Source: Acidimicrobiia bacterium (GTDB taxonomy: Bacteria; Actinomycetota; Acidimicrobiia; IMCC26256; JAMXLJ01). From it: a DNA stretch of 38,846 nucleotides. Shown here one piece after another: positions 3,816 through 37,095 of the stretch. A program made the position numbers and the translations under genes. The stretch lies in contig DASRES010000089.1 of NCBI GenBank assembly GCA_035651955.1, positions 1 through 38,846 of the forward strand, given 5' to 3'. The notes beneath the pieces are model-generated. The model had not been told where the DNA came from and did no database searches. It saw only the letters and a list, made by a program, of their open reading frames with translations. Within the stretch, counting starts at the first letter, position 1; every line of letters begins with the position of its first letter.

Positions 3816-4244
3816 TCAGGCCGGCGTGAACCTCGGGACGGCGACGCCTTCGTCGACGTCGTCCCACACGACCGTGACCGGCATGCCGATCTCGACCGCC
3901 GACGGGTCCACGCCGACCAGGTTCGCGACGAGGCGCACACCGCCGGCGTCGGCGAGCTCGACGACCGCGACGACGTATGGCAACGAGTCGCGCATCAACG
4001 GGACGACCGCGTGACGGATGACGGTGAAGCTGTAGACGCGACCGGTGCCGTCCTGCTCGACCCACTCGACGTCCTGCGCGCGGCACGCGTAGCAGAACGG
4101 GCTCGGTGGCATCCGGTACGTCCCGCAGCGCGTGCAACGCGGCACGACGAGCCGGTGCTGCGCGGCCGCGACCCAGAACGGCTCGGTCCACGAGTCGGGG
4201 GTGAGCACCGCGAGCTCGCGCGGGACCGCGCCGTCGGGCCGCAT
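3816..4244 (-). CDS. DUF35 zinc-ribbon/OB-fold partner protein
   Basis: This 142-residue protein has the rubredoxin-like zinc ribbon and OB fold of DUF35. The zinc ligands are CTRC (37-40) and CYAC (51-54), followed by an OB-fold beta region containing TGRVYSFTVI. DUF35 proteins act with thiolase-like partners, and in steroid side-chain degradation the Ltp2 aldolase works as a complex with a DUF35 domain. The neighbour upstream is such a thiolase-like protein, whose TGA shares one base with this ATG (TGATG), so equal translation of both subunits is likely. A GTG three bases further upstream is also possible. It is the last gene of the operon and is followed by hairpin copy 2. Confidence 0.88.
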   Translation of the reverse strand: MRPDGAVPRELAVLTPDSWTEPFWVAAAQHRLVVPRCTRCGTYRMPPSPFCYACRAQDVEWVEQDGTGRVYSFTVIRHAVVPLMRDSLPYVVAVVELADAGGVRLVANLVGVDPSAVEIGMPVTVVWDDVDEGVAVPRFTPA

Positions 4245-5515
4245 CACGCGCGCTGCTCCCCGCTCTTGCGCCCGAGGCGCGGGCCGTTCGGGCCCCGCTT
4301 CCGCTCGCTACCGCTCGCTCGCTCGCTCCGCAACAGCAACGAGCTCACCGGTATCGACGCCGGGCCGCCCGTCACGAGTGCGACGCGCGCGTCCTCGACC
4401 TGGTTGACCGCGTCGCCGCGCAATTGCTCCACCGCCTCCTTCACGTGCGTCATCCCGATGATGTACGCCTCCGAGAGGTTCCCGCCGTGCGTGTTGACGG
4501 GCAGCGAGCCGGACCCGAACCGGATGTTGCCGTCGGCGACGAACGGACCGCTCTCGCCGACCGGGCAGAACCCGTAGTCCTCGAGCTGCATGAGGACCAT
4601 CGGCGTGAAGTGGTCGTACAGCTCCGCGACGTCGACGTCGTCGGGGGTCATCCCGGCCATCTCGTACAGCCGCTTCGCGACGGGACGGTGACCGGACGAC
4701 GCGAAGTACTCGTCGTCCATGTTCATCCATGTGATCGCCTGACCCCACCGACCGTTCCCACCGTTCGCGCTCGCGCTGACGAGGACGGGCGGCCGCCGGA
4801 GGTCGCGCGCGCGCTCGACGGTGGTCGTCACCACGGCGACCGCGCCGTCACACTCGAGGCAGTAGTCGTAGAGGCACAGCGGATCGGAGATCATCCGCGC
4901 GTCGAAGTAGTCGTCGAGCGTGAGCGGCGTGCGCATCAACGCCGTCTCGCGCGGGACCGCGTTGGCACGTGTCGAGATCGCGACCTCGGCGAAGTGCTCG
5001 CGCGTCGTGCCGTACAGGTGCATGTGGCGCCGGGCGAGGATCGAGAACATCTGGCCGGGCCCGAGCAGACCGGCGGGACGCACGAAGTCCCCCTCCGGTG
5101 ACGGCGGCGCCGAGTACGAGCCACCACCACCCGCGCTCCCCGCGAACGACGCACCGAACCGGCGCAGCCCGGCCTGCTGCAGGACCATGTAGCTGACGAC
5201 GACCTCGGCCATGCCCGCCACGATCGCGGCCGACGCGAGCCCGACCGACCCCGCCGCGCCGCCCCCGCCGCCGGTCAACATGCCGGCGAAGCGGACCTCG
5301 GGGATGCCGAGCGTCTGCGCGACCAGCGCGGGGTCGAGCCCGAAGCTGTAGAGCCCGAAGCCGTCGACGTCCTCGACGCGCAATCCGGCGTCGTCGAGCG
5401 CGGCGAGGATGGCCTTGCCCACGAGCTCGAGCTGCGTCTGCGGGAGCGACCGACCGCGCCGGAAGTACTGCGACGCGCCGACCCCCACGATCGCGGTGCG
5501 GTCCTTGATCGTCAT
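4244..5515 (-). CDS. thiolase-like lipid-transfer protein (Ltp2-type aldolase candidate)
   Basis: This 423-residue protein has the SCP-x/Ltp thiolase fold. It carries the family's C-terminal signature YDHFTPMVLMQLEDYGFC and the glycine-histidine loop LPVNTHGGNLSEAY. Where true thiolases have the acylated cysteine in the first half, this protein reads LTGGGGGAAGS (about 80-90), so it should not catalyse normal thiolysis. Ltp2-type proteins with this deviation are retro-aldolases that need a DUF35 partner, and that partner is the next gene. The ATG at 5515 overlaps the previous stop as ATGA. The last 25 or so residues are a charged, low-complexity tail rich in Arg, Gly and Ser that is not part of the fold. 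Aldolase activity is inferred from family and context. Confidence 0.85.
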   Translation of the reverse strand: MTIKDRTAIVGVGASQYFRRGRSLPQTQLELVGKAILAALDDAGLRVEDVDGFGLYSFGLDPALVAQTLGIPEVRFAGMLTGGGGGAAGSVGLASAAIVAGMAEVVVSYMVLQQAGLRRFGASFAGSAGGGGSYSAPPSPEGDFVRPAGLLGPGQMFSILARRHMHLYGTTREHFAEVAISTRANAVPRETALMRTPLTLDDYFDARMISDPLCLYDYCLECDGAVAVVTTTVERARDLRRPPVLVSASANGGNGRWGQAITWMNMDDEYFASSGHRPVAKRLYEMAGMTPDDVDVAELYDHFTPMVLMQLEDYGFCPVGESGPFVADGNIRFGSGSLPVNTHGGNLSEAYIIGMTHVKEAVEQLRGDAVNQVEDARVALVTGGPASIPVSSLLLRSERASGSERKRGPNGPRLGRKSGEQRA

Positions 5516-21862: not shown

Positions 21863-21906
21863 CGTCTCTCCCGGGGGTCACGCGATCACCCACGAGCTTC
21901 GCACGC

Positions 21907-21935
21907 CGCGCGACGCGTCGCGCGCGCAGTACGGT
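21907..21935 (+). promoter_or_regulatory. leaderless promoter with 18-base palindrome
   Basis: TACGGT at 21930-21935 is a -10 candidate that puts the start point at the GTG (21942). Just upstream, 21907-21924 is a perfect 18-base palindrome (CGCGCGACG and its complement) over the -35 region. It sits in the 79-base divergent gap. Because the DNA is so rich in CG steps, such palindromes occur by chance; the location makes it worth noting. Confidence 0.4.
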
Positions 21936-21941
21936 CCGCCC

Positions 21942-23111
21942 GTGATCGACCTGGAGCTCGACCCGCTCCTCGCGGAGGCGCGGCGCCGTGCGGGGGGCCT
22001 CGAAGATCTCGGGCCGGGACCGTTCGTCGAGCCGTTCGCGCTGTTCCTCGAGTCGCTCGAGCGCGAGGCGCGGCTGAACGACCTCGGGCGGGTCATCGCG
22101 CGCGAGCGCGCGCTCCTCCATACCGTCAACCGGTTGCAGTACGTCGACGACCGCAAGCGGTTCCCCGCGATCGCGGGTGAGCGCATCGTGAAGCCGGTGT
22201 TCATCGTCGGGCTGCCCCGGACCGGCACGACGATCCTCCACGACATCCTCGCCCAGGACCCGGCGAATCGCGCCCCGATGACGTGGGAGGTGATGTTCCC
22301 GTCCCCGCCGCCGGAAGCCACGACGTTCCATACAGACCCCCGGATCGTGCGCTGCGCCGCGACGTTCCCTTCCGTCGCCGAGGAGGACGACCACGCGCGC
22401 GCGTTCAAGGCGATGCACCCGATGGGCGCGACGCTCTCGCAGGAGTGCGTCGTCATGATGGGCGAGGCGATGTGCACGCCGTTGTTCCACAACCAGTTCC
22501 GCGTCCCGACGTACCAGGACTGGGTCGACGACGACGCCGACTGGTCGCACGTGTACGCGTTCCACGAGCGGCAGCTGCAGCACCTGCAGTGGCACAACCC
22601 CGGCGACCGGTGGATCCTGAAGACCGGCGCACACATGTGGGCCATCGACGCGCTCCTCGCGCGGTACCCGGACGCGCGGATCGTGTTCACCCACCGTGAT
22701 CCCGTCGAGTCGATGACCTCGTACGCGAGCCTGACGACGCTCGTCCGTTCGAAGGGGAGCGACGACGTCGACCGCTTCGAGATCGCCGACGACTGGACGG
22801 CGCGTCTGCGCAAGGTGTTGATGCGCGCCGTCGACGCCCGCCGGAGGGATCATCCCGACGCGCGCTTCCACGACATGTTCTTCCGCGAGTTCGTGCGCGA
22901 CCAGTTCGGCGTCGTGGAGCAGATCTACGATGCGCTCGCTCTTCCCATGAGCGGCGCGGCCGCCGACCGGATGCGCGCGTTCATCGACGACAACCCGCAG
23001 GGCAAGCACGGCGTGCACGCGTACACGCCCGAGCAGTTCGGCGTCGTTCCCGAGAAGGTGCGCGAGGAGTTCTCCGAGTACATCGCGCACTTCGACCTCG
23101 CACCGGAGTAG
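21942..23111 (+). CDS. sulfotransferase-family protein, copy 1
   Basis: This 389-residue protein has the PAPS 5'-phosphosulfate loop FIVGLPRTGTT (87-97) and the 3'-phosphate motif HRDPVESMTSY (about 235-245), with a family-typical DNPQGKHGVHAYTPEQFG near the C-terminus. It belongs to the large bacterial sulfotransferase group of about 390 residues, for which substrates are mostly unknown. The GTG at 21942 lies six bases after TACGGT with no ribosome site. The next gene, an MDR reductase, follows after six bases. The pair recurs once directly downstream. Confidence 0.85.
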   Translation: MIDLELDPLLAEARRRAGGLEDLGPGPFVEPFALFLESLEREARLNDLGRVIARERALLHTVNRLQYVDDRKRFPAIAGERIVKPVFIVGLPRTGTTILHDILAQDPANRAPMTWEVMFPSPPPEATTFHTDPRIVRCAATFPSVAEEDDHARAFKAMHPMGATLSQECVVMMGEAMCTPLFHNQFRVPTYQDWVDDDADWSHVYAFHERQLQHLQWHNPGDRWILKTGAHMWAIDALLARYPDARIVFTHRDPVESMTSYASLTTLVRSKGSDDVDRFEIADDWTARLRKVLMRAVDARRRDHPDARFHDMFFREFVRDQFGVVEQIYDALALPMSGAAADRMRAFIDDNPQGKHGVHAYTPEQFGVVPEKVREEFSEYIAHFDLAPE

Positions 23112-23117
23112 CAGCCG

Positions 23118-24185
23118 ATGCCGGACACCATGCGCGCCTGGCGGACGCACGCGTACGGCGCGCCGCGTGACGCGCTGTCGCTCGACACCGTGCCGATCCC
23201 GGATCCGGAGGCGGGCGAGGTGCGCGTCCGCGTGCACGCGGTGCCGCTCAACCTCAACGACCTCGAGCGCATCACCGGCGGCAACATGATGGTGCGCCCG
23301 GAGCTGCCCGCGATCCCGGGGATGGAGGTGATGGGCGTCGTCGATGCGTGCGGTGAGGGCGTGGACGACGCGTGGCACGGCCGCCGCGTCGTCGCGATCG
23401 CGAAAGGCGCGACCGGTGGCTTCGCCGAGCACGCGATCTGCCCGGTCGTCGGGACGTTTCCCATGCCGGACGACATCGCGCTCCCCGGCGCGGCCGCGCT
23501 CTTCTTCCCGTTCCATCTCGCGTGGCTCGGGCTGTTCGACCGCGCCGGCCTCGAGAAGGGCGAGTCCGTGTTGATCCACGCGGCGGCGGGCGGCGCCGGG
23601 TCGGCGGCGGTCCAGCTCGCGAAGCACGCCGGTGCACGCGTGTTCGCGGCGGCCGGTGGGCCCGAGAAGGTCGCGTTGTGTCGTGAGCTGGGTGCCGACC
23701 TCGCGATCGACTACACGGCGAACGACTTCGCACCGGTCGTGCTGCGCGAGACCGGTGGCCGCGGCGTCGACGTCGTGTTCGACAACGTCGGCGAGGCGGT
23801 CATGGAGCAGTCGATGAACGCGCTCGCGTACAACGGCCGCTACGTGATGATGGGGTTCGCGTCGAACAAGGCGGTGGCAGACGAGCAGTTCCTCGTCCCG
23901 CGCCGCATCGCGCTCGGGAACATGAAGCTGTGCGGCGTCCTGCTGTCCTACGCGGACGACGACCGCGCCGGGCTCGTGAAGACCGCGCTGGGCTGGAACC
24001 TGCCGCCCGCACGCCTCGGCGCGCAGATCATGACGGACGTGATCCGGCTCGTGCGCGACGGTGCCGTGCGACCGGTCGTCGGAAAGGTCGTGGGTTTCGA
24101 CGAGATCCCGGCCGCGATCGAAGCGATGGCGGACCGCCGGACGACGGGCCGCACGGTGGTGGTCGTCGATCCCGAGGCCGCGTGA
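23118..24185 (+). CDS. zinc-free MDR reductase (quinone-oxidoreductase-like), copy 1
   Basis: This 355-residue medium-chain reductase has the NADPH motif IHAAAGGAGSAAVQLAKHAG and GRGVDVVFDNVG. It lacks the catalytic zinc cysteines, as in NADPH:quinone oxidoreductase or enoyl reductase relatives. It probably reduces an activated double bond or quinone in solution. The ATG at 23118 is six bases after the sulfotransferase stop. Its TGA overlaps the GTG of the next sulfotransferase (GTGA). The 25339-26403 product has the same length class and motif order, so the two look like paralogues with considerable divergence. Confidence 0.87.
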   Translation: MPDTMRAWRTHAYGAPRDALSLDTVPIPDPEAGEVRVRVHAVPLNLNDLERITGGNMMVRPELPAIPGMEVMGVVDACGEGVDDAWHGRRVVAIAKGATGGFAEHAICPVVGTFPMPDDIALPGAAALFFPFHLAWLGLFDRAGLEKGESVLIHAAAGGAGSAAVQLAKHAGARVFAAAGGPEKVALCRELGADLAIDYTANDFAPVVLRETGGRGVDVVFDNVGEAVMEQSMNALAYNGRYVMMGFASNKAVADEQFLVPRRIALGNMKLCGVLLSYADDDRAGLVKTALGWNLPPARLGAQIMTDVIRLVRDGAVRPVVGKVVGFDEIPAAIEAMADRRTTGRTVVVVDPEAA

Positions 24186-25336
24186 GCGCGCACGCCGACG
24201 CGCTGCTCGACGCGGCGTGCGCCGCCACCGGTCTCGACGACTTCGGCGACGACTCGTTCCGCGAGGGACTCGACGTGTACGTCGCGTCGCTCGACGACGA
24301 GGCCCGTCTCAACGAGATCGGGCAGGCGGCGCTCGACGCGCAGATCGTGACCAACCTGAGCAATCGTCTCCGGGTGACGGACTGGATCGCGCATCACCCG
24401 GACGTCGAGCGCGAGCGCGTGGCGAGGCCGTTGTTCGTGCTCGGCCTCCCGCGCACCGGCACGACGTTCCTCAGCTACCTGCTCGACCAGGACGCTGACA
24501 ACCGGTCGCTCATGCGGTGGGAGGCTCAGGACAGCGTCCCACCGCCGGAGCGCGCGACGTTCACGACCGACCCGCGCATCGCGGCGACGCGTGAGTCGCA
24601 GACGATGCTCGACGCGCTCAATCCCGGGTTCAAGGCGGTGCACTACGAGGCGCCGGACGGGCCGACCGAGTGCGTCTCGGTCTTCGCGCAGGACTTCAAG
24701 GCCGTGCTGTGGGAGACCGTCGCCAACGTGCCGTCGTACGGCGAGTGGCTCGCGCACTGCGACTACACGTCGGCGTACCAGTACCACCGGCGGGTGCTGC
24801 AGCTGCTGCAGTCGCACGCGCCCGGACGCTGGTCCTTGAAGAGCCCGGCCCACTGCCTCGCGCTCGACGCTCTCCTCGCCACGTATCCCGACGCGCGCTT
24901 CGTCGTCACGCACCGCGACCCGGTCGTCGTCGTCGCATCGACGTGCAGCCTCGTGCGCTCGCTGTCGGGCACGTTCTCGGATGCCGACCACGGCACGTAC
25001 GTCGCGTCGCATTGGCCGGACGTGCTGGAGCAGATCGTGACGCGCGCCGACGCGTTCCGCGACGCGCACGGCGACGAGCGGTTCTACGACGTCGCGTACG
25101 TCGACCTCGTGCGCGATCCGGTCGGCACCGTACGTGCGATCTACGAGCACTTCGACGAGGAGCTGAGCGGCGATGCCGCCGCCGCAATGGCCCGGTACGC
25201 GTCTGACAACCGTCAGGGCAAGCACGGGACGCATGCGTACCGGCTCGAGGACCTCGGGCTGGACCCCGTGACGCTCGAGGAGCGCTTCGCCCCGTACCGC
25301 GAGCGTCACGGCATCCCGCACGAGCGAGTCCCGTAG
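24182..25336 (+). CDS. sulfotransferase-family protein, copy 2
   Basis: This 384-residue paralogue of the 21942-23111 product has FVLGLPRTGTT (85-95) as the PAPS loop, HRDPVVVVASTCSLVRSL as the 3'-phosphate region and DNRQGKHGTHAYRLEDLG near the C-terminus, matching DNPQGKHGVHAY in copy 1. The GTG at 24182 overlaps the preceding stop as GTGA. The next MDR gene starts two bases after its stop. Both copies keep the key loop, so both are probably active. They may act on different substrates or form one hetero-complex. Confidence 0.85.
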   Translation: MSAHADALLDAACAATGLDDFGDDSFREGLDVYVASLDDEARLNEIGQAALDAQIVTNLSNRLRVTDWIAHHPDVERERVARPLFVLGLPRTGTTFLSYLLDQDADNRSLMRWEAQDSVPPPERATFTTDPRIAATRESQTMLDALNPGFKAVHYEAPDGPTECVSVFAQDFKAVLWETVANVPSYGEWLAHCDYTSAYQYHRRVLQLLQSHAPGRWSLKSPAHCLALDALLATYPDARFVVTHRDPVVVVASTCSLVRSLSGTFSDADHGTYVASHWPDVLEQIVTRADAFRDAHGDERFYDVAYVDLVRDPVGTVRAIYEHFDEELSGDAAAAMARYASDNRQGKHGTHAYRLEDLGLDPVTLEERFAPYRERHGIPHERVP

Positions 25337-25338
25337 GG

Positions 25339-26403
25339 ATGCGCGCGTGGCGGGTGCACGACGTCGGTGAGCCGGACCGCGTGATCACGATGGAGGACGT
25401 CGCGCCACCCGAAGCGGGCGCGCTGCGCGGTCTGCGCATGAGCTTGGCGGGATGGGTGCCCGAGGGCGCTCCCGGCGCCGCGTCCGAGCCGCACGAGGAC
25501 TGGGTGGTCATCGACGTCGCGATGGCCGCGTTGTCGCTGCCCGACGTGACGATGGCGCGTGGGACGTACCCGGTCCCGGTATCCCGCCCGTACACGAGCG
25601 GCCAGGAGGGCGTCGGCGTCGTGACGGACGCCGCGCCGCGTCACCGTCACCTCGTGGGCCGGCGCGTCGCGGCGTGCATGATCCAGCCGTTCGGGAGCCT
25701 GGCCGATGTCGCCGTGGGCGTCGGCATGATCGTCGCGGTGTCGGACGCGATGCCCGACGCCGACGCCGCCGCCTTCCTCATCCCCGCGCACACCGGGTAC
25801 CACGCGGTGGTGCGGCGCGGGTCCGTCACGGACGGCGAAATCGTCGCGGTCACGGGTGCGGCGGGCGCGCTCGGCTCGGCATGCATCCAGCTCGCGAGAG
25901 CACGAGGCGCGACCGTGCTCGCGATCGTCGGCACCTCGGGCGAGGTCGACAAGGCGGAGCACTGCCGCGAGCTCGGAGCGGACGTGGTGATCGACCACAC
26001 ACGGGTCGACGTCCCAGACGCGTTGTTGCGCGAGACCGACGGCCGCGGCGTCGACGTCATCGTGGACCCCGTGCAGGGCGCGGCCGCCGCCGAGCTCAGG
26101 CGTGCATTGCGCGTCGGCGGCCGGCACGTGCTGTGCGGTCACGCCGGCGGGCTGGCCCCGATCGACCCGCACTTCTACCTGCGCAACCACACGCTCGTGG
26201 GCGTCACGCTCGGCGGGTACCCGCCCGACGAGATGCGGCGCATGCACGCGGAGACGCAGACCGCGCTCGACGTGATGCTGACCGCGGGAACGTACCGGCC
26301 GACGCCGACCCGCGTCGTCGGCTTCGCCGACGTCCCTACCGCGCTGGCCGACATCGCGGCCCGCCGCAGCGCGGGACGGATCGTCGTGGACATCCGGTCC
26401 TGA
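25339..26403 (+). CDS. zinc-free MDR reductase, copy 2
   Basis: This 354-residue member of the same family as 23118-24185 has the cofactor region VTGAAGALGSACIQLARARG and GRGVDVIVDPVQG. The N-terminal region is more divergent, with an extra PEGAPGAASEPHEDW stretch. There are no zinc ligands. It starts two bases after the second sulfotransferase stop. The gene order sulfotransferase-MDR-sulfotransferase-MDR indicates duplication of a two-gene unit. It ends 27 bases before the DUF1003 gene. Confidence 0.85.
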   Translation: MRAWRVHDVGEPDRVITMEDVAPPEAGALRGLRMSLAGWVPEGAPGAASEPHEDWVVIDVAMAALSLPDVTMARGTYPVPVSRPYTSGQEGVGVVTDAAPRHRHLVGRRVAACMIQPFGSLADVAVGVGMIVAVSDAMPDADAAAFLIPAHTGYHAVVRRGSVTDGEIVAVTGAAGALGSACIQLARARGATVLAIVGTSGEVDKAEHCRELGADVVIDHTRVDVPDALLRETDGRGVDVIVDPVQGAAAAELRRALRVGGRHVLCGHAGGLAPIDPHFYLRNHTLVGVTLGGYPPDEMRRMHAETQTALDVMLTAGTYRPTPTRVVGFADVPTALADIAARRSAGRIVVDIRS

Positions 26404-28397: not shown

Positions 28398-29228
28398 ATG
28401 GGTCTGTTCGACGCGTTCAGGTACGACGGCAAGCGGGCGCTCGTCGTCGGCGGCGCGACCGGCATGGGTGCCGCGGTCGTCGCGCTGGTGAAGGACGCCG
28501 GCGCGGAGGTCGTCGCGATGGACCGGGCGAACATCGACGCGAAGGGAGTGACCGCGATCCACGTCGATCTCGCCGACAAGGCGTCGATCGACAACGCCGT
28601 CGACGAGTGCGGTGGCGAGGTCCACGCGCTCTTCTCGTGCGCCGGCGTCGCCGACGGCACGCCCGGGATCGAGAAGATCAACTTCCTCGGCCACCGCTAC
28701 ATGCTCGACCGCCTGCTCGAGAAGCGGATGATGCCGCGCGGCTCGGCGGTCGGGTTCATCTCGTCGGCGGCCGGGCTCGGCTGGCAGTCGAACCTGCCGC
28801 TGCTCAAGGAGTACCTCGACATCACGGACTTCGACGAGGCGTCACGCTGGGCCCAGGAGCACGGCAAGGCCGACTACATGTGGAGCAAGCAGGCGATCAA
28901 CACGTATGTCGCGCGCGAGGCGTTCCGTCTGCTGAAGCAGGGGATCCGCATCAACTCGATCCTCCCCGGCCCGACCGACACGCCCCTCGCGCAGGCGAAC
29001 GCGGACCTATGGCTCGGGTTCGGTGCCGACTACCGGGGCGAGGTCGGCATCGACGCATCGACGCCGCTCGAGCAGGCGTACCCGCTCGTCTTCCTGTGCA
29101 GCGACGCGGCCGTCGGCATCACGGGCATCACGATGATCACGGACGCCGGCTACGTGAGCTCGGGCATCACCGAGTCGTTCCCGGCCGCGACGCCCGTCGT
29201 CGGGTTCCTCTCGGGCGCGCTCTCGTAG
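28398..29228 (+). CDS. SDR-family hydroxysteroid-dehydrogenase-like oxidoreductase
   Basis: This 276-residue short-chain dehydrogenase has GGATGMG (18-24), a serine in FISSAAG (about 122-123) and YMWSK with Y160 and K164. It resembles the 3-alpha-hydroxysteroid dehydrogenase/carbonyl reductase group, in which a long insertion lies between serine and tyrosine, as here (LLKEYLDITDFDEA). It should interconvert an alcohol and a ketone with NAD(P). The ATG at 28398 has GAGG four bases upstream. Its TAG shares one base with the GTG of the DUF35-thiolase fusion (TAGTG), so the two are coupled and probably act in sequence. Confidence 0.87.
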   Translation: MGLFDAFRYDGKRALVVGGATGMGAAVVALVKDAGAEVVAMDRANIDAKGVTAIHVDLADKASIDNAVDECGGEVHALFSCAGVADGTPGIEKINFLGHRYMLDRLLEKRMMPRGSAVGFISSAAGLGWQSNLPLLKEYLDITDFDEASRWAQEHGKADYMWSKQAINTYVAREAFRLLKQGIRINSILPGPTDTPLAQANADLWLGFGADYRGEVGIDASTPLEQAYPLVFLCSDAAVGITGITMITDAGYVSSGITESFPAATPVVGFLSGALS

Positions 29229-30877
29229 TGGAGGTCGCGCGGCCGCTCCCGCTCCTCACCCCGTCGAACGAGTGGTTCTGGACGTCGGGCCGCGACGGCA
29301 AGCTGCGCATCCAGGGCTGCACGGAGTGCGGGACGCTCGTGCACCCACCCGTGCCGATCTGCCCGGCGTGCCGCAGCACCGCGTGGGAGCCGACGGTCGT
29401 CTCGGGGCGCGGCACGGTCGTGGGCGTGACCGTCAACCACCACATGTGGCACCCGGCGTTCGAGCCCCCGTACGCGATCGCCAACGTCGCGCTCGAGGAG
29501 GACGCGCACGTCCACCTGACGACGAACGTCGTCGGCTGCGATCCCGACGACGTGCACGTCGGGCAGGAGGTCCGGGTCCGGTTCGAGCAGCACGACGACG
29601 CCTGGCTCCCGCTGTTCGAGCCGACCGGCACGATCGACCCGCGCGACCGCGTGGGCGAGCCGCGCCGTCCGACGCCGCGGCCGCCCGTGAGCGATCACCG
29701 GTTCGAGCACCGCGCCGTCCTGTCGGGCGTCGGGCGTTCCGCGATCGGTCGCCGCCTGATGCGCGACCCGCTCTCGCTGACGGTCGACGCCTGCCTCGCC
29801 GCCGTCGCCGACGCGGGTCTCACGCTCGACGACATCGACGGCCTCTCCACGTACCCGGGCGGGCTCAGCGGCATGGGGATGAGCGAAGGCGGTGTCACCG
29901 CGGTCGAGGAGGCGCTGCGCATCCACCCGACGTGGCACAACGGCGGCGGTGAGCTGCCCGGACCGGGCGGATCGGTGATCGCCGCGATGCTCGCCGTCGC
30001 GAGCGGGCTGTGCCGTCACGTGCTGTGCTTCCGGACGGTCTGGGAGTCGACGTACGCGACGCTCGGTCTCGCGCTCGCGAGCGGAGCCGGCACGGGACGG
30101 GTCTCCGGTCCGCTGATGGAGTGGCGCGCGCCGTTCGGAGCGATGTCGGCCGCCAACTGGATCGGCATGAACGCGAACCAGTACTTCCACCGGTACGGCG
30201 CCACCCGGGAGATGCTCGGCCGCATCGCGCTCAACGGCCGCGCGAACGCGGCGCGCAACCCGGTCGCGATCTACCGCGACCCCATGACGATGGACGACTA
30301 CATGTCCGCGCGTCCGATCACGACGCCGTTCGGCCTCTACGACTGCGATGTGCCCTGCGACGCGTCCGTCGCGGTCGTCGTGTCCGACGCGTCCGTCGCG
30401 CGCGACCTGCCGAAGCCCGCGGTCGCGGTCGAGGCGGTCGGCACGCAGATCACCGAGCGCGTCTCGTGGGACCAGGACACCGTGACGCACGAGCCGCAGG
30501 TGCTCGGTCAGTCCGCGCACCTCTGGACGCGCACGGACCTCCGGCCGACCGACGTCGACCTCGCGCTGGTCTACGACGGGTTCACGTTCAACGCGATCAC
30601 GTGGCTCGAGGCGCTCGGGTTCTGCGGCATCGGCGAGGCGAAGGACTGGATCGGCGACGGCTCGCGCATCGCGATCGACGGCGACCTGCCCGTCAACCCG
30701 CACGGCGGCCAGCTCTCCGAAGGACGGACGCACGGCTACGGCTTCGTCTACGAGGCGGTCGTGCAGCTCCGCCACGACGCCGGCGAGCGCCAGGTCGCGG
30801 ACGCGCGGACCGCGGTGGTGACGTCGGGCGGCGGCACGCCGTCGGGCGTGCTGCTGCTCCGGCGTGGTGGTGCCTAA
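29228..30877 (+). CDS. DUF35-thiolase fusion (Ltp2-type aldolase candidate)
   Basis: This 549-residue chain starts with a DUF35 zinc ribbon (CTEC 31-34, CPAC 45-48) and OB fold to about residue 135. A Pro/Arg-rich linker (about 137-160) leads to a thiolase-like domain from about 163. The thiolase part has LVYDGFTFNAITWLEALGFC and LPVNPHGGQLSEG (about H492), but reads GGGELPGPGGSV where the acyl cysteine is expected. It is thus the same aldolase-type pair as the genes at 3816-5515, joined in one chain in the opposite order. It probably splits a 3-hydroxyacyl-CoA-type substrate, releasing a ketone or aldehyde and a short acyl-CoA. The GTG at 29228 overlaps the SDR stop. Confidence 0.87.
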   Translation: MEVARPLPLLTPSNEWFWTSGRDGKLRIQGCTECGTLVHPPVPICPACRSTAWEPTVVSGRGTVVGVTVNHHMWHPAFEPPYAIANVALEEDAHVHLTTNVVGCDPDDVHVGQEVRVRFEQHDDAWLPLFEPTGTIDPRDRVGEPRRPTPRPPVSDHRFEHRAVLSGVGRSAIGRRLMRDPLSLTVDACLAAVADAGLTLDDIDGLSTYPGGLSGMGMSEGGVTAVEEALRIHPTWHNGGGELPGPGGSVIAAMLAVASGLCRHVLCFRTVWESTYATLGLALASGAGTGRVSGPLMEWRAPFGAMSAANWIGMNANQYFHRYGATREMLGRIALNGRANAARNPVAIYRDPMTMDDYMSARPITTPFGLYDCDVPCDASVAVVVSDASVARDLPKPAVAVEAVGTQITERVSWDQDTVTHEPQVLGQSAHLWTRTDLRPTDVDLALVYDGFTFNAITWLEALGFCGIGEAKDWIGDGSRIAIDGDLPVNPHGGQLSEGRTHGYGFVYEAVVQLRHDAGERQVADARTAVVTSGGGTPSGVLLLRRGGA

Positions 30878-30910: not shown

Positions 30911-31663
30911 GTGCGAACCGTCGTCGTCGGCGCGTCGACCGGGCTCGGTCGTTGCATCGCAATCGGACTGGGTCAACGCGGCGCGCGCGTCGCCCTCCTC
31001 GCCCGCTCGGTCGACAAGCTCGAGCGCGCGGCCGAGGAGGCGGGCAACGGCGCCATCGCGATCGCGTGCGACGTCACCGACGAGCCGGCCTGCCGAGCCG
31101 CGATCGCCAAGGCGGCCGCCGAGCTCGGCGGCATCGACGCGTTCGTCTACACGCCGGCGATCGGGCCGCTCGCCCGCCTCGCGGAGACCGACGCCGCGAC
31201 GTGGCAGCGCACGTTCGCGACGAACGTCACCGGCGCGGCCATCGCGACGGCCGCCGCGCTCCCCGCGCTCACGGAGTCGTCCGGCACCGCGGTCTACCTC
31301 TCGTCGGTGAGCGCGTCGCTCACACCACCGTGGCCCGGGCTCGCCGCGTACGCGGTGAGCAAGGCCGCGCTCGACAAGCTCGTCGAGGCATGGCGCATCG
31401 AGCACCCGGGCATCGGCTTCACGCGCCTCGTCGTCGGCGACTGTGCCGGCGGGGAGGGTGACGCGATGACGCACTTCGCGAACGCCTGGGACCCCGACCT
31501 CGCCGCCGAGATCGGCCAGCAGTGGGTGTCGAAGGGCTACCTCAGCGGGTCGTTGATCGACGTGAACGAGGTGGTCGGCGTGGTCGACGCCGTGCTGCGT
31601 TGCGGGGCGACCGCGTCGCTCCCATCGGTGACCGTGGCACCCCGGCCGCCGACCGATGGGTGA
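30911..31663 (+). CDS. SDR-family oxidoreductase
   Basis: This 250-residue short-chain dehydrogenase has GASTGLG (7-13), the serine pair in YLSSVSA (about 131-132) and YAVSK with Y147 and K151. It lacks a recognisable substrate signature. The GTG at 30911 has GGAGG seven bases upstream. TAACAT at 30875-30880, which includes the stop of the fusion gene, could be a -10 box, but read-through across 33 bases is equally likely. Its stop overlaps the epoxide hydrolase start by eight bases (ATGGGTGA). Confidence 0.85.
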   Translation: MRTVVVGASTGLGRCIAIGLGQRGARVALLARSVDKLERAAEEAGNGAIAIACDVTDEPACRAAIAKAAAELGGIDAFVYTPAIGPLARLAETDAATWQRTFATNVTGAAIATAAALPALTESSGTAVYLSSVSASLTPPWPGLAAYAVSKAALDKLVEAWRIEHPGIGFTRLVVGDCAGGEGDAMTHFANAWDPDLAAEIGQQWVSKGYLSGSLIDVNEVVGVVDAVLRCGATASLPSVTVAPRPPTDG

Positions 31664-32780
31664 CACGCTCGAACGGTTCACGATCCACGTCGACGACCGC
31701 GTCCTCGACGACCTCCGCGCCCGTCTCGCGCTGACGCGCTTCCCCGACCAGATCGCGGAGACGGGCTGGGAGTACGGCATCCCCGTCGACTATGTCCGCG
31801 ACCTCGTCGGCTACTGGCGGAACAGGTACGACTGGCGCACCCACGAAGCGCGGCTGAACGAGCTCGACCACTTCCGCACCGAGATCGACGGCCAACCGAT
31901 CCACTTCGTGCACGCGAGGTCCACCGCCGCCGATGCGTTCCCACTGTTGCTGACGCACGGCTGGCCGGGTTCGGTCGTGGAGTTCCTCGACGTGATCCCG
32001 CTGCTCACGGCGCCCGGCGACGGGATCGCGTTCGACGTCGTCGCGCCGTCGTTGCCCGGCTATGCCTTCTCGGGACCGACGCACACGCGCGGGTGGGACG
32101 TCTCGCGCATCGCGCGCGCGTTCGCAGCGTTGATGGACCGACTCGGGTACGAGCGGTACGGCGCGCAGGGCGGGGACTGGGGCGCGCAGGTCGCGACACG
32201 CATCGGCGCGCTGGACACCGGACACTGCGCGGCGATCCACCTCAACATGCCGATCGCAAATCCCCCGGCCGAGCCGGTCGAGCTCGGCGACGCCGACAAG
32301 GCCGACCTCGCCGCCATGCAACGGTTCGCGCGTGCGGAGTCCGGCTACGCGAACGAGCAGGCGACCAAGCCCCAGACGCTCGGCGTCGCGCTCAACGACT
32401 CCCCGGCCGGGCTGCTCGCCTGGATCGTCGAGAAGCTCCGGACGTGGAGCGACTGCGACGGCGATCCCGAGAACGTCTTCACGCGCGACCAGATGCTCAC
32501 GAACGTGATGGCGTACTGGGTCACGCAGACGATCACGTCCTCGGCCCGCCTCTACTGGGAGCACCAGCACACCCGCGACGGGCAGCCCGAGTACGTCGCG
32601 GTCCCGACGGGCGTGGCGCGCTACCCGAAGGAGATCCTCCGCTACCCGCGCCCCTGGGTCGAACACCGCTACAACGTGACGCACTGGGCCGAGATGCCAC
32701 GGGGCGGGCACTTCGCCGCGATGGAGCAACCCGAGCTGTTCGCCGGCGACCTGCGCACCTTCTTCCGCACCGTCGCGTGA
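31656..32780 (+). CDS. epoxide hydrolase with N-terminal EHN domain
   Basis: This 374-residue hydrolase of the juvenile-hormone/microsomal type has an N-terminal EHN region (about 5-110), HGWPGS (101-106) as the oxyanion element, nucleophile D174 in AQGGDWGAQ and H352 in GGHFAAMEQP. Microsomal members have a membrane anchor; I see none here. It should hydrolyse an epoxide to a diol through an ester intermediate. An epoxide could arise from a P450 in this window. The ATG at 31656 overlaps the SDR stop. The next gene starts 62 bases downstream with its own promoter. Confidence 0.9.
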   Translation: MGDTLERFTIHVDDRVLDDLRARLALTRFPDQIAETGWEYGIPVDYVRDLVGYWRNRYDWRTHEARLNELDHFRTEIDGQPIHFVHARSTAADAFPLLLTHGWPGSVVEFLDVIPLLTAPGDGIAFDVVAPSLPGYAFSGPTHTRGWDVSRIARAFAALMDRLGYERYGAQGGDWGAQVATRIGALDTGHCAAIHLNMPIANPPAEPVELGDADKADLAAMQRFARAESGYANEQATKPQTLGVALNDSPAGLLAWIVEKLRTWSDCDGDPENVFTRDQMLTNVMAYWVTQTITSSARLYWEHQHTRDGQPEYVAVPTGVARYPKEILRYPRPWVEHRYNVTHWAEMPRGGHFAAMEQPELFAGDLRTFFRTVA

Positions 32781-32786
32781 GCAGGA

Positions 32787-32824
32787 TTGCCCCGACCCGA
32801 CATTCGTGTCATAGTCGGTGACAC
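32787..32824 (+). promoter_or_regulatory. promoter with operator candidate for the 32843-37706 operon
   Basis: TTGCCC (32787-32792) and CATAGT (32810-32815) are 17 bases apart and form a plausible promoter. GTGTCA-N7-TGACAC (32806-32824) is a perfect inverted repeat covering the -10 box, so a bound protein would block transcription. GGAGG follows five bases before the ATG at 32843. The TetR gene at the far end of this operon (37092) is the obvious candidate to bind it; that is inference. Confidence 0.6.
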
Positions 32825-32842
32825 CAATTTCCGGAGGTCCGC

Positions 32843-33583
32843 ATGGGCTTGCTCGACGGGAAGGTCGCGGTCGTCACCGGCGCGGGATCGGGGATGGCGA
32901 AGGCGTCCGTGAAGGTGTTCGTCCGCGAGGGCGCGCGCGTCGTCGCCGCGGACGTGAGCGGCGCGGAGAAGGACACTGCCGCCGAGGTCGGTGACGCGGT
33001 CCTCCCGGTGCACTGCGACGTCACGCGCGAAGCAGACGTCGAAGCGGTGATGCGCGCCGCCGTCGACGAGTTCGGCCGGCTCGACGCGGTCCTGAACGTC
33101 GCGGGCATCGCGGACGGGATCATGCTCGCCGACGTCACGATGGATCAGTACGACCGCATGATGGACGTCGACCTGCGCGGCGTGTTCCTCGGCATGAAGC
33201 ACGGCATCCGCACGATGCTCGAGTGCCGCAACGGTGGCGCGATCGTGAACTGGTCGTCGATCGGCGGGCTGAACTCCTCGATCGCGACGAGCGTGTACGG
33301 CGCGGCGAAGGCCGGCGTCATCTCGCTCACGAAGACGGGCGCGCTCGAGTACGCACGCAAGAACATCCGTGTGAACTGCGTCTGTCCCGGTTACATCAAG
33401 ACCGAGATCATGGGCGCGTCGCTCGACCACTTCCCCGGTGCGGCCGAGGGCACGCCGCTCGGGCGGCTCGGCCAGCCACACGAGGTCGCCGAGGTCGCCG
33501 CGTTCCTGGCGTCCGACCGCGCGTCGTTCGTGACCGGCGCGATCGTCCCCGTCGACGGCGGCCGCGTCGCGGCGGTTGCGTGA
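32843..33583 (+). CDS. SDR-family oxidoreductase (FabG-like)
   Basis: This 246-residue classical short-chain dehydrogenase has TGAGSGMA (12-19), NVAGIA (about 85-90), the serine pair in VNWSSIGG (138-139) and YGAAK with Y152 and K156. It ends GAIVPVDGGRVAAVA as usual. It is the first gene of the operon with a molybdenum hydroxylase subunit, a P450 and TetR. It probably oxidises an alcohol made by one of these. The ATG at 32843 has a good GGAGG. Confidence 0.9.
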   Translation: MGLLDGKVAVVTGAGSGMAKASVKVFVREGARVVAADVSGAEKDTAAEVGDAVLPVHCDVTREADVEAVMRAAVDEFGRLDAVLNVAGIADGIMLADVTMDQYDRMMDVDLRGVFLGMKHGIRTMLECRNGGAIVNWSSIGGLNSSIATSVYGAAKAGVISLTKTGALEYARKNIRVNCVCPGYIKTEIMGASLDHFPGAAEGTPLGRLGQPHEVAEVAAFLASDRASFVTGAIVPVDGGRVAAVA

Positions 33584-33590
33584 ACCGGAC

Positions 33591-35918
33591 GTGACCACGG
33601 GCGCGACGCGCTACGTCGGCGCGCGCATCAATCGTGTCGAGGACGCCCGGCTGCTCACCGGGCGCGGGACGTTCGTCGACGACGTCGTGCTGCCCGGGAT
33701 GCTGCACGCGTCGTTCGTGCGGAGCCCGTTCCCACGCGCCGCGATCCGGGGGATCGACACGTCCGCCGCACTCGCGCTCCCGGGCGTGCACTTCGTCTTC
33801 ACGGCCGCCGACCTCAACGCCGGCGCGAAGGAGCAGTGGCACACGTCGATCGGCCGTGCGAGCCCGGAGACACCCCGCCCGCCGCTCGCGGAGGGCGAGG
33901 TCCGCTTCGTCGGCGATCCGGTCGCGCTCGTCGTCGCCGAGAGCCGCTACGTCGCGGAGGACGCGGTCGAGCTGGTCGACGTCGACTACGACCCGCTGCC
34001 CGCGGTCGTCGACTACACGCAGGCCGCGGCCGCCGACTCGCTCGTCCACGAGCAGCACGGCTCGAACGTCGTCGGGCAGCTGGGCGGCCTCCCCGCGTCC
34101 GCGCTCGAGGACGTCTACGCCGAGGCCGCGCACGTCGTCACCGAGACGATCCGCCAGCAGGCGTACGCGCCGGTCCCGATGGAGGGGCGCGGGATCGTCG
34201 TCGACTTCTCGCGCGCGACGGGCGAGCTGACGATCTACGCCGCGACGCAGTCGCCCCACGAGGTCCGGCTGTTCTGCTCCCGCCTGCTCGGGATGCCGGA
34301 GCACCGCATCCGCGTCGTGATGCGCGACACCGGCGGCGGCTTCGGCCAGAAGATCCTCGTGCAGCGCGACGAGATGTGCTTGATGCTCGCGGCACCGAAG
34401 GTCGGCGCGCCGCTGAAGTGGGTCGAGGACCGCGCCGAGAACCTGCTCGCGGCGGGCCAGTCGCGTCACGAGCACGCCGACGTCGCGATCGCCTTCGACG
34501 CTGAGGGCGCGATCCAGGCCGCGTACCTCGACTTCGTGCAGGACTGCGGCGCCTACCCGACCCCGTGGCCGGTCGGCACCGCGGCCGCGGTCGGCGTGCT
34601 GTTCCCGGGCCCGTACCGTGTGCCGCGCGCCGGCTTCGCGACCACGACGCTCTACACGAACACCGTTGGCCGAACCGCGTACCGCGGGCCGTGGCAGTTC
34701 GAGACCCTCGCCCGCGAGGTCGTGCTCGACATCGCGGCGCGCCGAATGGGGATCGACCCCGCCGAGCTGCGCCGCCGGAACCTCCTCCGGCGCGACGAGC
34801 TCCCGTACGCGAACCCGAACGGGATGACGTACGACGCCATCTCGCCCCTCGAGACGTTCGAGCAGGCGCTCGCGATCGTCGACTACGACGGGTTCCGCGC
34901 CGAACAGGCGGCGGCGCGTGCGGACGGCCGGTACCTCGGCATCGGCATCGCGAACTACGTGGAGCCGTCGACACCGGGGTTCGGCTCGTACGCGACGGAA
35001 GCCGCGACCATCCGGATCGAGCCGTCGGGAACGGTGAACGTGTACATCGCGGGCGGTTCGACCGGGAACAGCCTCGAGACCACGGTCGTGCAGCTCGCGG
35101 CCGACGCGCTCGGTGTCGACATCGCGGACGTCAACACGATCCAGGGCGACACCGCGGTCACCGGGTTCGGCGCGGGTGCGGCGGGGAGCCGCAGCGGGTC
35201 GATGACCGCCGGCGCGGTGCGCGAGACCGCGGCCGTCCTGCGCGACCGCATCGTCGCGATCGCCGCGCACCGTCTCGAGGCGGCCGCGGAGGACATCGAG
35301 CTCAGCGGGAGCCACGCGCACGTGCGCGGCACGCCGAGCGTCGGCGTGTCGCTCGCGGAGCTCGCCGCGCTCGCGTACTTCCAGCCGGCCGCGCTGCCCG
35401 CCGGTCTGCCCGCGGGGCTGGAGGCGACCGCGCGCTACACGGCCGCGGCCCCGTCGATCTGGGTGAACGCCACGCACGTCTGCACGTGCGAGCTCGACCC
35501 CGCGACGGGTGTCGTCACGTTGCTGCGCTACGTCGTGAGCGAGGACTGCGGCCCGATGATCAACCCGAGCGTCGTCGAAGGTCAGATCGCGGGCGGCGCG
35601 GTGCAGGGCATCGGCGGCGCGCTGTACGAGCACCTCGCGTACGACGACGAGGGCAACCCGGTCACGACGACGTTCATGGACTACCTGCTGCCCACCGCGA
35701 CCGAGGTCCCCGCGATCGAGTACGGCCACGTCGAGACACCGAGCCCCGGGCCGGGCGGCCACAAGGGCGTGGGCGAGGGCGGGGCGATCGGCGCGCCCCC
35801 GGCCGTCGTCAACGCCGTGAACGACGCACTCGTGCCGTTCGGCGTGACGGCGACCCGGTTGCCGCTCACGCCGTCGGCGATCGTCGCGCTCATGGAAGGA
35901 CAGGACGGGAATGAGTGA
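33591..35918 (+). CDS. xanthine-dehydrogenase-family molybdopterin subunit
   Basis: This 775-residue protein is the large molybdopterin-binding subunit of the xanthine dehydrogenase/CO dehydrogenase family. It has DTGGGFGQKI, TAYRGPWQFE (about 363-372) and the catalytic glutamate E729 in GEGGAIGAPPAVVNA. The active-site loop is AYRGPWQ and not the AYxCSFR of true form I CO dehydrogenase, so a hydroxylase is expected. Such subunits need a FAD subunit and a 2Fe-2S subunit, and neither is nearby. The GTG at 33591 is seven bases after the SDR stop; a TTG 15 bases earlier overlaps it. Its stop overlaps the P450 ATG by eight bases. Confidence 0.88.
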   Translation: MTTGATRYVGARINRVEDARLLTGRGTFVDDVVLPGMLHASFVRSPFPRAAIRGIDTSAALALPGVHFVFTAADLNAGAKEQWHTSIGRASPETPRPPLAEGEVRFVGDPVALVVAESRYVAEDAVELVDVDYDPLPAVVDYTQAAAADSLVHEQHGSNVVGQLGGLPASALEDVYAEAAHVVTETIRQQAYAPVPMEGRGIVVDFSRATGELTIYAATQSPHEVRLFCSRLLGMPEHRIRVVMRDTGGGFGQKILVQRDEMCLMLAAPKVGAPLKWVEDRAENLLAAGQSRHEHADVAIAFDAEGAIQAAYLDFVQDCGAYPTPWPVGTAAAVGVLFPGPYRVPRAGFATTTLYTNTVGRTAYRGPWQFETLAREVVLDIAARRMGIDPAELRRRNLLRRDELPYANPNGMTYDAISPLETFEQALAIVDYDGFRAEQAAARADGRYLGIGIANYVEPSTPGFGSYATEAATIRIEPSGTVNVYIAGGSTGNSLETTVVQLAADALGVDIADVNTIQGDTAVTGFGAGAAGSRSGSMTAGAVRETAAVLRDRIVAIAAHRLEAAAEDIELSGSHAHVRGTPSVGVSLAELAALAYFQPAALPAGLPAGLEATARYTAAAPSIWVNATHVCTCELDPATGVVTLLRYVVSEDCGPMINPSVVEGQIAGGAVQGIGGALYEHLAYDDEGNPVTTTFMDYLLPTATEVPAIEYGHVETPSPGPGGHKGVGEGGAIGAPPAVVNAVNDALVPFGVTATRLPLTPSAIVALMEGQDGNE

Positions 35919-37095
35919 CATCTCGTACGACCCGTACACCGCCATCAACATGCCGGACCCGTACCCGCTCTACGAGCGGCTGCGTCAAGAAGCGCCGCTC
36001 TACTACAACGAGGAGTACGACTTCTACGCGGTGAGTCGCTACGAGGACTGCGAGCGCGGCCTCGTCGACGCGAAGCGCTTCATCTCGGGTCGTGGCGGCG
36101 TGCTCGAGCTCATCAAGGCGAACATCGAGCTGCCGCCCGGCAACCTGATCTTCGAGGACCCACCCGCGCACGACGTGCACCGCAGCCTGTTGTCGCGCGT
36201 GTTCACCCCGCGGCGCGTGTCGGCGCTCGAGCCGAAGATCCGCGAGTTCTGCGCGCACAGCCTCGACCCCATCGCGGACGAGAAGGAGTTCGACTTCATC
36301 GCGGACCTGGGCGCACAGATGCCGATGCGGGTCATCGGCATGCTGTTCGGGATCCCGGAGGCCGACCAGGCGGCGGTGCGCGACATGGCCGACTCGAACC
36401 TCCGCGTGCGCGCCGGCGAGGCGATGAAGGTGTCGGAGAACCCGACGTTCGGCAGCGAGATGTTCGAGGAGTACATCGACTGGCGCATGGAGCACCCGTC
36501 GGACGACCTCATGACCGAGCTGCTCCACACCGAGTTCACCGACGAGCACGGCGTGACGCGCACGCTCACGCGGGAAGAGGCGCTGCTGTACACGACGGTC
36601 GTCGCGGGCGCGGGCAACGAGACGACGACGCGCCTGATCGGCTGGGCCGGCAAGGTGCTCGCCGAGCACCCCGACCAGCGACGCGAGCTCGTCGCCGACC
36701 GGTCTCTCGTCCCGAACACGATCGAGGAGCTGTTGCGCTACGAGTCACCGGGACCGCAGATCGGCCGGTACGTCCCCGAGGACGTCGAGGTGCACGGGCA
36801 GACGGTTCCCGAGGGGAGCGCCATGCTCTTCGTCGTGAGCGCGGCCAACCGCGACGACCGCCGCTGGGACGGAGCCGACCGCTTCGACATCCACCGCAAG
36901 GTCGGCCAGCACCTCGCGTTCGGGTACGGCATCCACTACTGCCTCGGCGCCGCGCTCGCCCGTCTCGAAGGTCGCATCGCGCTCGACGAGCTGCTGAACC
37001 GCTTCCCGGAGTGGGACGTCGACCTCGACCGGGCCCGCCTGTCGCCGACGTCGACGGTGCGCGGGTTCGAGACGCTGCCCGCGACCGTCGCGTGA
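35911..37095 (+). CDS. cytochrome P450
   Basis: This 394-residue soluble P450 has GAGNETTTR (I-helix with the acid-alcohol pair E-T), EELLR (ExxR) and FGYGIHYCLGAA (337-348, thiolate C344). It differs from the P450 at 20636-21862 in the I-helix, where that one reads AGLDTVS. It needs redox partners that are absent here. The ATG at 35911 overlaps the preceding stop (ATGAGTGA), and its stop overlaps the TetR gene (GTGA). Its substrate is likely the inducer or precursor of the inducer for that regulator. Confidence 0.93.
   Translation: MSDISYDPYTAINMPDPYPLYERLRQEAPLYYNEEYDFYAVSRYEDCERGLVDAKRFISGRGGVLELIKANIELPPGNLIFEDPPAHDVHRSLLSRVFTPRRVSALEPKIREFCAHSLDPIADEKEFDFIADLGAQMPMRVIGMLFGIPEADQAAVRDMADSNLRVRAGEAMKVSENPTFGSEMFEEYIDWRMEHPSDDLMTELLHTEFTDEHGVTRTLTREEALLYTTVVAGAGNETTTRLIGWAGKVLAEHPDQRRELVADRSLVPNTIEELLRYESPGPQIGRYVPEDVEVHGQTVPEGSAMLFVVSAANRDDRRWDGADRFDIHRKVGQHLAFGYGIHYCLGAALARLEGRIALDELLNRFPEWDVDLDRARLSPTSTVRGFETLPATVA

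Follow-up and report, generated by a model that had tools for sequence, protein, structure and literature searches.

A DUF35-thiolase fusion from an Acidimicrobiia bacterium: a candidate acyl-CoA lyase with a Tyr/Gly/Arg active site

The contig DASRES010000089.1 of an Acidimicrobiia bacterium (assembly GCA_035651955.1), whose 38,846 nucleotides are called here the window, carries a gene (29228..30877, forward strand) in which a DUF35 domain and a thiolase-like domain are joined in one chain. Such a gene raises the questions of what reaction a thiolase fold devoid of the usual catalytic residues would catalyze, whether the joining is genuine, and how it relates to a DUF35 and a thiolase-fold protein that the same window encodes as a split pair. 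An earlier interpretation made from the letters alone (hereafter the sequence-only reading) had described the chain as DUF35, linker and Cys-less thiolase, and as one of two versions of the same system. Our comparisons of sequences make it rather likely that the protein is a self-contained DUF35-dependent lyase that cleaves a C-C bond of acyl-CoAs, probably as a retro-aldolase.

The gene starts with GTG, ends with TAA, contains no internal stop and encodes 549 residues. All three Pfam domains of the product exceed their cut-offs: the zinc ribbon zf-ChsH2 (PF12172; residues 18-54, 29279..29389, E 1e-10), the OB fold OB_ChsH2_C (PF01796; residues 58-120, 29399..29587, E 4e-15) and Thiolase_C_1 (residues 433-538, E 2e-31). 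The protein is of the broad kind that combines a thiolase fold with a DUF35 module made of a zinc ribbon and an OB fold, in the order that had been predicted. Between the two halves lies a linker (residues ~134-157, 29627..29698, delimited by homologue alignment and by model confidence) that is rich in proline and arginine and differs in length among homologues; the thiolase-fold domain follows (residues 158-549, 29699..30874, delimited by phmmer and VIA-align). The zinc ligands are C31, C34, C45 and C48, spaced C-x2-C-x10-C-x2-C; among 72 fused proteins the last three are invariant and C31 is kept in at least 90%. These four belong to a total of 11 cysteines in the chain, so that the description 'Cys-less' holds for the catalytic cysteines only.

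Both halves point to the same known complex. In a phmmer search of PDB sequences, residues 8-133 best match 6ok1_B (the DUF35 domain of ChsH2, E 7e-23) and residues 163-544 best match 6ok1_A (TcLtp2, E 3.7e-61), which are two chains of one structure, the Ltp2-ChsH2(DUF35) steroid aldolase of Thermomonospora curvata. By Foldseek and VIA-align, 6ok1 is also the top structural match of the thiolase domain (Z 48.9, root mean square deviation 1.8, 368 residues aligned), followed by 4u4e, Sal, an archaeal thiolase, BbsB and PhlC; these fold matches cover residues 157-549 only, and the DUF35 assignment comes from Pfam and phmmer. An AlphaFold2 model built from 72 fused sequences is compact, with a predicted local distance difference test score (pLDDT) of 89.9 and a predicted template modelling score (pTM) of 0.91, and its linker is ordered (pLDDT 82 in block 141-150, 91 in block 151-160). 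Within this model, the pTM and the linker point to a probable fixed docking of the DUF35 domain. A physical interaction of the two domains in a 1:1 ratio, anticipated in the sequence-only reading, thus gains support from the matches and from the model.

The active site sets the fusion apart from its best match. Alignment places the motif YDGFTFN at 30572..30592 on the forward strand (Y449, D450, G451 and F452, with N455), and R500 (30725..30727, same strand) at the position of TcLtp2 Tyr344, of CtSal Gln352 and of the histidine in the thiolase GHP motif. Y449 corresponds to TcLtp2 Tyr294, and G451 replaces TcLtp2 His296. In the available text of PMC12329534, Tyr294 of the TcLtp2 YDHF motif is the base, the histidine of that motif forms the oxyanion hole and Tyr344 is the acid, while CtSal has YDCY with Cys304 and, at the second position, Gln352. 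Compared with the classical thiolase of the same window, the fusion has YDGF for NEAF and GR for GHP, and no cysteine opposite the nucleophile C134 or the CCGGG motif; in this alignment none of the three thiolase residues (nucleophile Cys, CxG Cys, GHP His) is retained. Tyr449, Asp450, Gly451, Asn490, His492, Gly499 and Arg500 occur in 98/98 of the fused rows that reach the motif (99 fused rows were counted, G041 being cut before it; L067 and L123, which did not fit a text pattern, were left out). Tyr, Gly and Arg also occupy the matching positions in 22/22 proteins of split sister pairs, that is, pairs of separate genes related to the fusion; Asn455, present in 98/98 fused proteins and 0/22 sisters, is limited to the fused clade. 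The conserved Tyr/Gly/Arg set, the fold, the loss of the thiolase catalytic residues and the fusion itself are evident from the sequence, and the roles that we give below to Gly451, Arg500 and Asn455 are putative.

In a maximum-likelihood tree of 100 rows, which included 45 of the 80 named loci and left out L067, L123 and G041, all 65 fused rows form one clade (support 100/100). Split pairs with YDGF surround it, and the canonical Ltp2 proteins fall outside together with the split pair of the window (100/99); among the outer groups some long branches are uncertain. The window pair consists of a 423-residue thiolase-fold protein (4244..5515) and a 143-residue DUF35 protein (3816..4247), both on the reverse strand, with the thiolase-like gene first, DUF35 second and a GTGA overlap, an order opposite to that of the fusion, as had been remarked. 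It retains the Ltp2 active site (YDHF, EAY) and groups with TcLtp2 (100/98). Judging from tree and motifs, the fusion and the window pair are paralogues and not two versions of one system, against what the sequence-only reading had proposed.

Our proposal is that DUF35 and lyase cooperate within one chain. We infer the docking mode, the dimer, the retro-aldol chemistry, the residue roles and the products as follows. The N-terminal DUF35 would fold against the thiolase domain of its own chain, completing and shaping the substrate cleft as in Ltp2-ChsH2 and Sal-Shy, and two fused chains would form a central thiolase dimer with a DUF35 domain on each flank. Tyr449 would deprotonate a bulky acyl-CoA at its beta-hydroxyl, cleavage of the C-C bond would release a ketone or aldehyde, and Arg500 with the neighbouring His/Asn could hold and reprotonate the CoA enolate to give acetyl- or propionyl-CoA. 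Since the gene left the operon of a MaoC hydratase, a different enzyme, for example a P450, may supply the beta-hydroxyl.

Several observations favour a lyase. The invariance of the base Tyr in fused and sister proteins, combined with the loss of the thiolase residues, argues for it at the sequence level. According to the available text of PMC12329534, crystal structures have DUF35 wrapping the thiolase-fold subunit and shaping its cleft, and in that of PMC12502768 gene disruption in Comamonas shows DUF35 to be indispensable for the aldolase step. The former text also reports that in the Sal system a flexible linker ties DUF35 to the hydratase, with substrate channelling not seen; to us, the tie of DUF35 to the lyase in the fusion would suit a role of DUF35 within the active site better than one of linking up a hydratase. 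Further support, by analogy, comes from gene neighbourhoods, compared in 25 split-sister loci, 95 fused loci and 20 control windows. The fused loci comprise 15 from the order and 80 named ones; at least two pairs of them, G013/L061 and G001/L073, each seem to be one and the same contig, and many loci are shortened by contig ends. Sister loci contain a two-domain acyl-CoA dehydrogenase (20/25), which we take to resemble FadE34, a MaoC protein (16/25), a second DUF35 (19/25) and a CoA ligase (12/25), against 2/20, 0/20, 0/20 and 4/20 in the controls. Such an operon matches the order of known retro-aldol pathways, in which the substrate is dehydrogenated, hydrated and cleaved. Near the fusion, the same dehydrogenase query matches in 25/95 loci and a second DUF35 in 0/95; taken with the MaoC counts given below, this indicates that the fused copy is no longer part of the dehydrogenase-hydratase-lyase operon.

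Other observations weigh against a retro-aldolase. The second catalytic Tyr344 of Ltp2 is Arg in the fusion and the oxyanion His is Gly, and therefore the chemistry tested in Ltp2 is not directly transferable; arginine is a poor general acid. MaoC relatives were found near the fusion in 0/95 loci (two close queries, E 1e-12) and in 4/95 (five queries, E 1e-5), so that no hydration step to prepare a retro-aldol substrate is evident there, although one annotated fused locus on a Streptomyces plasmid has a MaoC gene 3.1 kb upstream. Moreover, the neighbourhoods of the fused loci vary much and point to no substrate, and no activity data for the fused clade were found in the literature covered.

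Comparison with known DUF35-dependent enzymes bears on the same issue. Ltp2-ChsH2 shares with the fusion the four-Cys zinc ribbon and the base Tyr, but it is made of separate chains and its DUF35 belongs to the MaoC protein ChsH2. The bile acid aldolase Sal-Shy(DUF35) of Comamonas testosteroni (9myr) is likewise a DUF35-dependent thiolase-fold lyase that lacks the second Tyr of Ltp2; it differs by YDCY, catalytic Cys304 and Gln352 in place of YDGF and Arg, by a Cys3His instead of a four-Cys zinc finger, and by a DUF35 tethered to the hydratase Shy. IpfD-IpfE, from the ibuprofen degradation plasmid pIBU218, is a DUF35 and thiolase-fold pair that is described in print, in the text available, as a retro-aldolase acting on aryl-propionyl-CoA, a non-steroid; its YD.F Tyr is that of the fusion, which by analogy counts for a retro-aldolase. 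IpfD itself has YDAF and GFY, is encoded by a gene separate from that of its partner and sits on a long branch outside the fused clade, and it was ruled out as parent family of the fusion since its YDAF/GFY motif differs from YDGF/GR. Besides ipfDE, pIBU218 carries a second pair (L152 938-2092, 2119-2502) with an Ltp2-type YDHF/EAY site. Atf1-ChsH4 of Mycolicibacterium neoaurum combines an aldolase with a stand-alone DUF35, both needed in vivo (PMC10398937, available text); it is Sal-like and split, and is likened to the fusion by description, not by sequence.

Among the other functions to be weighed, we consider it unlikely that the protein forms C-C bonds or transfers acyl groups (by retro-Claisen, condensation or Friedel-Crafts chemistry), in the manner of PhlABC or of the archaeal complex of thiolase and HMG-CoA synthase. 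In those complexes DUF35 does accompany thiolase-fold enzymes as well, and chains of PhlC, BbsB and 6esq are among the structural matches; however, Ltp2 is nearest in sequence, and condensation and acyl-transfer reactions of the thiolase family use a catalytic Cys, which the fusion lacks along with the CxG Cys and the GHP His. We lean still further away from a mere Ltp2 orthologue, a C3 steroid side-chain aldolase with DUF35 fused on. The best NCBIfam model is PRK07855 (lipid-transfer protein), presumably the Ltp2 model, and the best PDB match is TcLtp2, but the fusion scores 272.1 bits against a cut-off of 469, has replaced Tyr344 and His296, and belongs to a separate clade, with Ltp2-type proteins encoded elsewhere in the genome (C4, C5). 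Least credible of the functional alternatives is a non-catalytic carrier of acyl-CoA or lipid: it would account for the missing thiolase residues and for the database name 'lipid-transfer protein', and the available text of PMC2954200 proposed in 2010 that DUF35 is a module for non-covalent delivery of acyl-CoA, but the invariance of YDG, N490, H492 and GR in 98 fused proteins, while the linker varies, points to catalysis.

The draft state of the genome, with its 92 contigs, and the existence of split pairs whose junction holds just one in-frame stop (G044, G048, G037) might suggest that an assembly or sequencing error turned a split pair into the fusion. This idea is refuted by uninterrupted copies in 80/80 retained named loci and in 17/58 genomes of the order, and by RefSeq plasmid records in which the fusion is one coding sequence, annotated 'OB-fold domain-containing protein'. 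A missed stop or frameshift at residues 135-165, the weak point named in the sequence-only reading, is excluded by these homologues, which a search for the architecture in other genomes brought up, and by codon statistics. The G+C fraction at codon positions 1/2/3 is 0.71/0.52/0.95 over the whole gene, and at position 3 it stays between 0.89 and 0.99 in all 13 sliding windows, those over the junction (codons 81-200) included; as it is high throughout, a change of frame is absent. The reverse strand of 29228-30877 is open as well; no family search was made for it, and codon pattern and homologues favour the forward frame. The congeneric genome G001 carries the same fusion at 80% identity, and the other complete copies in the order, where one of the 17 is cut by a contig end, are 56-83% identical to that of the window. 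The named loci, which are the best 80 of 576 relatives and whose junction is open in a single frame, come from Acidimicrobiia, Frankia and relatives, Mycobacterium, Nocardia, Pseudonocardia, Streptomyces and one contig labelled Eisenbacteria. In a spread sample of the phylum, with at most 3 candidates scored per genome, the fusion is present in at least 14/396 genomes. The joining of DUF35 and thiolase is real, old and common to many actinobacteria. The Eisenbacteria copy (L066, from a metagenome-assembled genome labelled Candidatus Eisenbacteria) is 79% identical and nests among Acidimicrobiia; it is either a transfer or a misbinned contig.

As for its origin, the closest genomic relative of the fusion is not the window pair but a split pair on contig C66 (54% identity), with the YDGF/Arg site and, as in the fusion, DUF35 before the lyase, the two genes overlapping at TGATG. 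One fusion event, the joining of a translationally coupled DUF35-lyase pair like that of C66, explains the data for this clade, to which the search for fusions was confined. In three split pairs (G044:C252, G048:C292 and G037:C19) both genes share a reading frame and just one stop keeps them apart, so that losing it could yield a fusion; in a fourth (G035:C180) two stops separate genes of one frame. By hand count, the 4.1 Mb source genome holds, in addition to the fusion, ~11 split DUF35-thiolase pairs, which occur in either gene order, so that the two copies in the window lend little weight to the two cleavage steps that they had suggested. The DUF35-thiolase contigs of this genome are C4, C5, C15, C31, C32, C33, C54, C55, C66, C69, C86 and C89, and the active-site motifs of the set vary (YDHF, FDHF, YDAF, YDSF, YENM, YDGF).

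The architecture as such is already known: DUF35-thiolase fusions were remarked upon in 2010 with the SSO2064 structure (PMC2954200), in one line of the available text that gives no order, clade, active site or function. RefSeq proteins from Streptomyces and Rhodococcus plasmids (for example WP_142270203.1 and WP_229582220.1) are the same fusion, of the same clade, with YDGF and GR. In the open-licence literature, neither the YDGF/GR class nor the fused clade was found described; what is new here is the class of active site and the fact that it stands apart from the hydratase. Beyond the lyase itself, we put forward, as a tentative idea that may well prove wrong, that the fused clade and its split sisters form a distinct catalytic class of C-C lyases, found in Actinobacteria and Sphingomonads, in whose fused branch the DUF35 tether moved from hydratase to lyase, so freeing the enzyme to cleave beta-hydroxyacyl-CoAs supplied by P450 and not by MaoC, derived from non-steroid alicyclic or terpenoid acids. 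P450 genes lie near the fusion in 62/95 loci against 3/20 controls, for an expectation of ~0.1-0.2 per 16 kb, possibly somewhat higher (17 to at least 63 matches per genome of 3.0-6.6 Mb); this excess is measured against a small control from one order, and the mycobacterial loci, being closely related, do not count as independent. The conserved Tyr/Gly/Arg set predicts more than two solutions for the same cleavage on a thiolase fold, and offers a simple annotation marker to separate the class from Ltp2, Sal and true thiolases; at present its members carry the annotation 'OB-fold domain-containing protein' or receive their scores from models named 'lipid-transfer protein'. A single-chain form also needs no co-expressed partner, an advantage where a steroid-type or terpenoid aldolase is wanted for biocatalysis.

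Clustering of gene neighbours revealed no universal partner of the fusion; an amidohydrolase-2 gene is found in 45/95 fused loci. Directly upstream, a short-chain dehydrogenase of 276 residues (28398..29228, forward strand) ends on the start of the fusion, stop and GTG sharing one base (TAGTG); its relatives (at least 55%) occur near the fusion in 10/95 fused loci and 0/20 control windows. Downstream on the same strand (30911..37095) runs a series of genes for a short-chain dehydrogenase/reductase (SDR), an epoxide hydrolase, another SDR, the large subunit of a molybdopterin dehydrogenase and a P450. Homologues of the epoxide hydrolase and of the Mo dehydrogenase were found in 0/95 other fused loci at the cut-offs used, and the run recurs at 70-72% identity (tested for SDR2, epoxide hydrolase, dehydrogenase and P450) in genome G036, on the same contig and far from the G036 fusion (L188, a control window, G036:C101 20000-37600). 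It is a conserved pathway unit, probably separate in function from the fusion, and since it recurs away from the fusion, no substrate is deduced from it. Elsewhere in the window (21684-26403), sulfotransferase and zinc-type quinone oxidoreductase genes alternate twice, like a tandem duplication.

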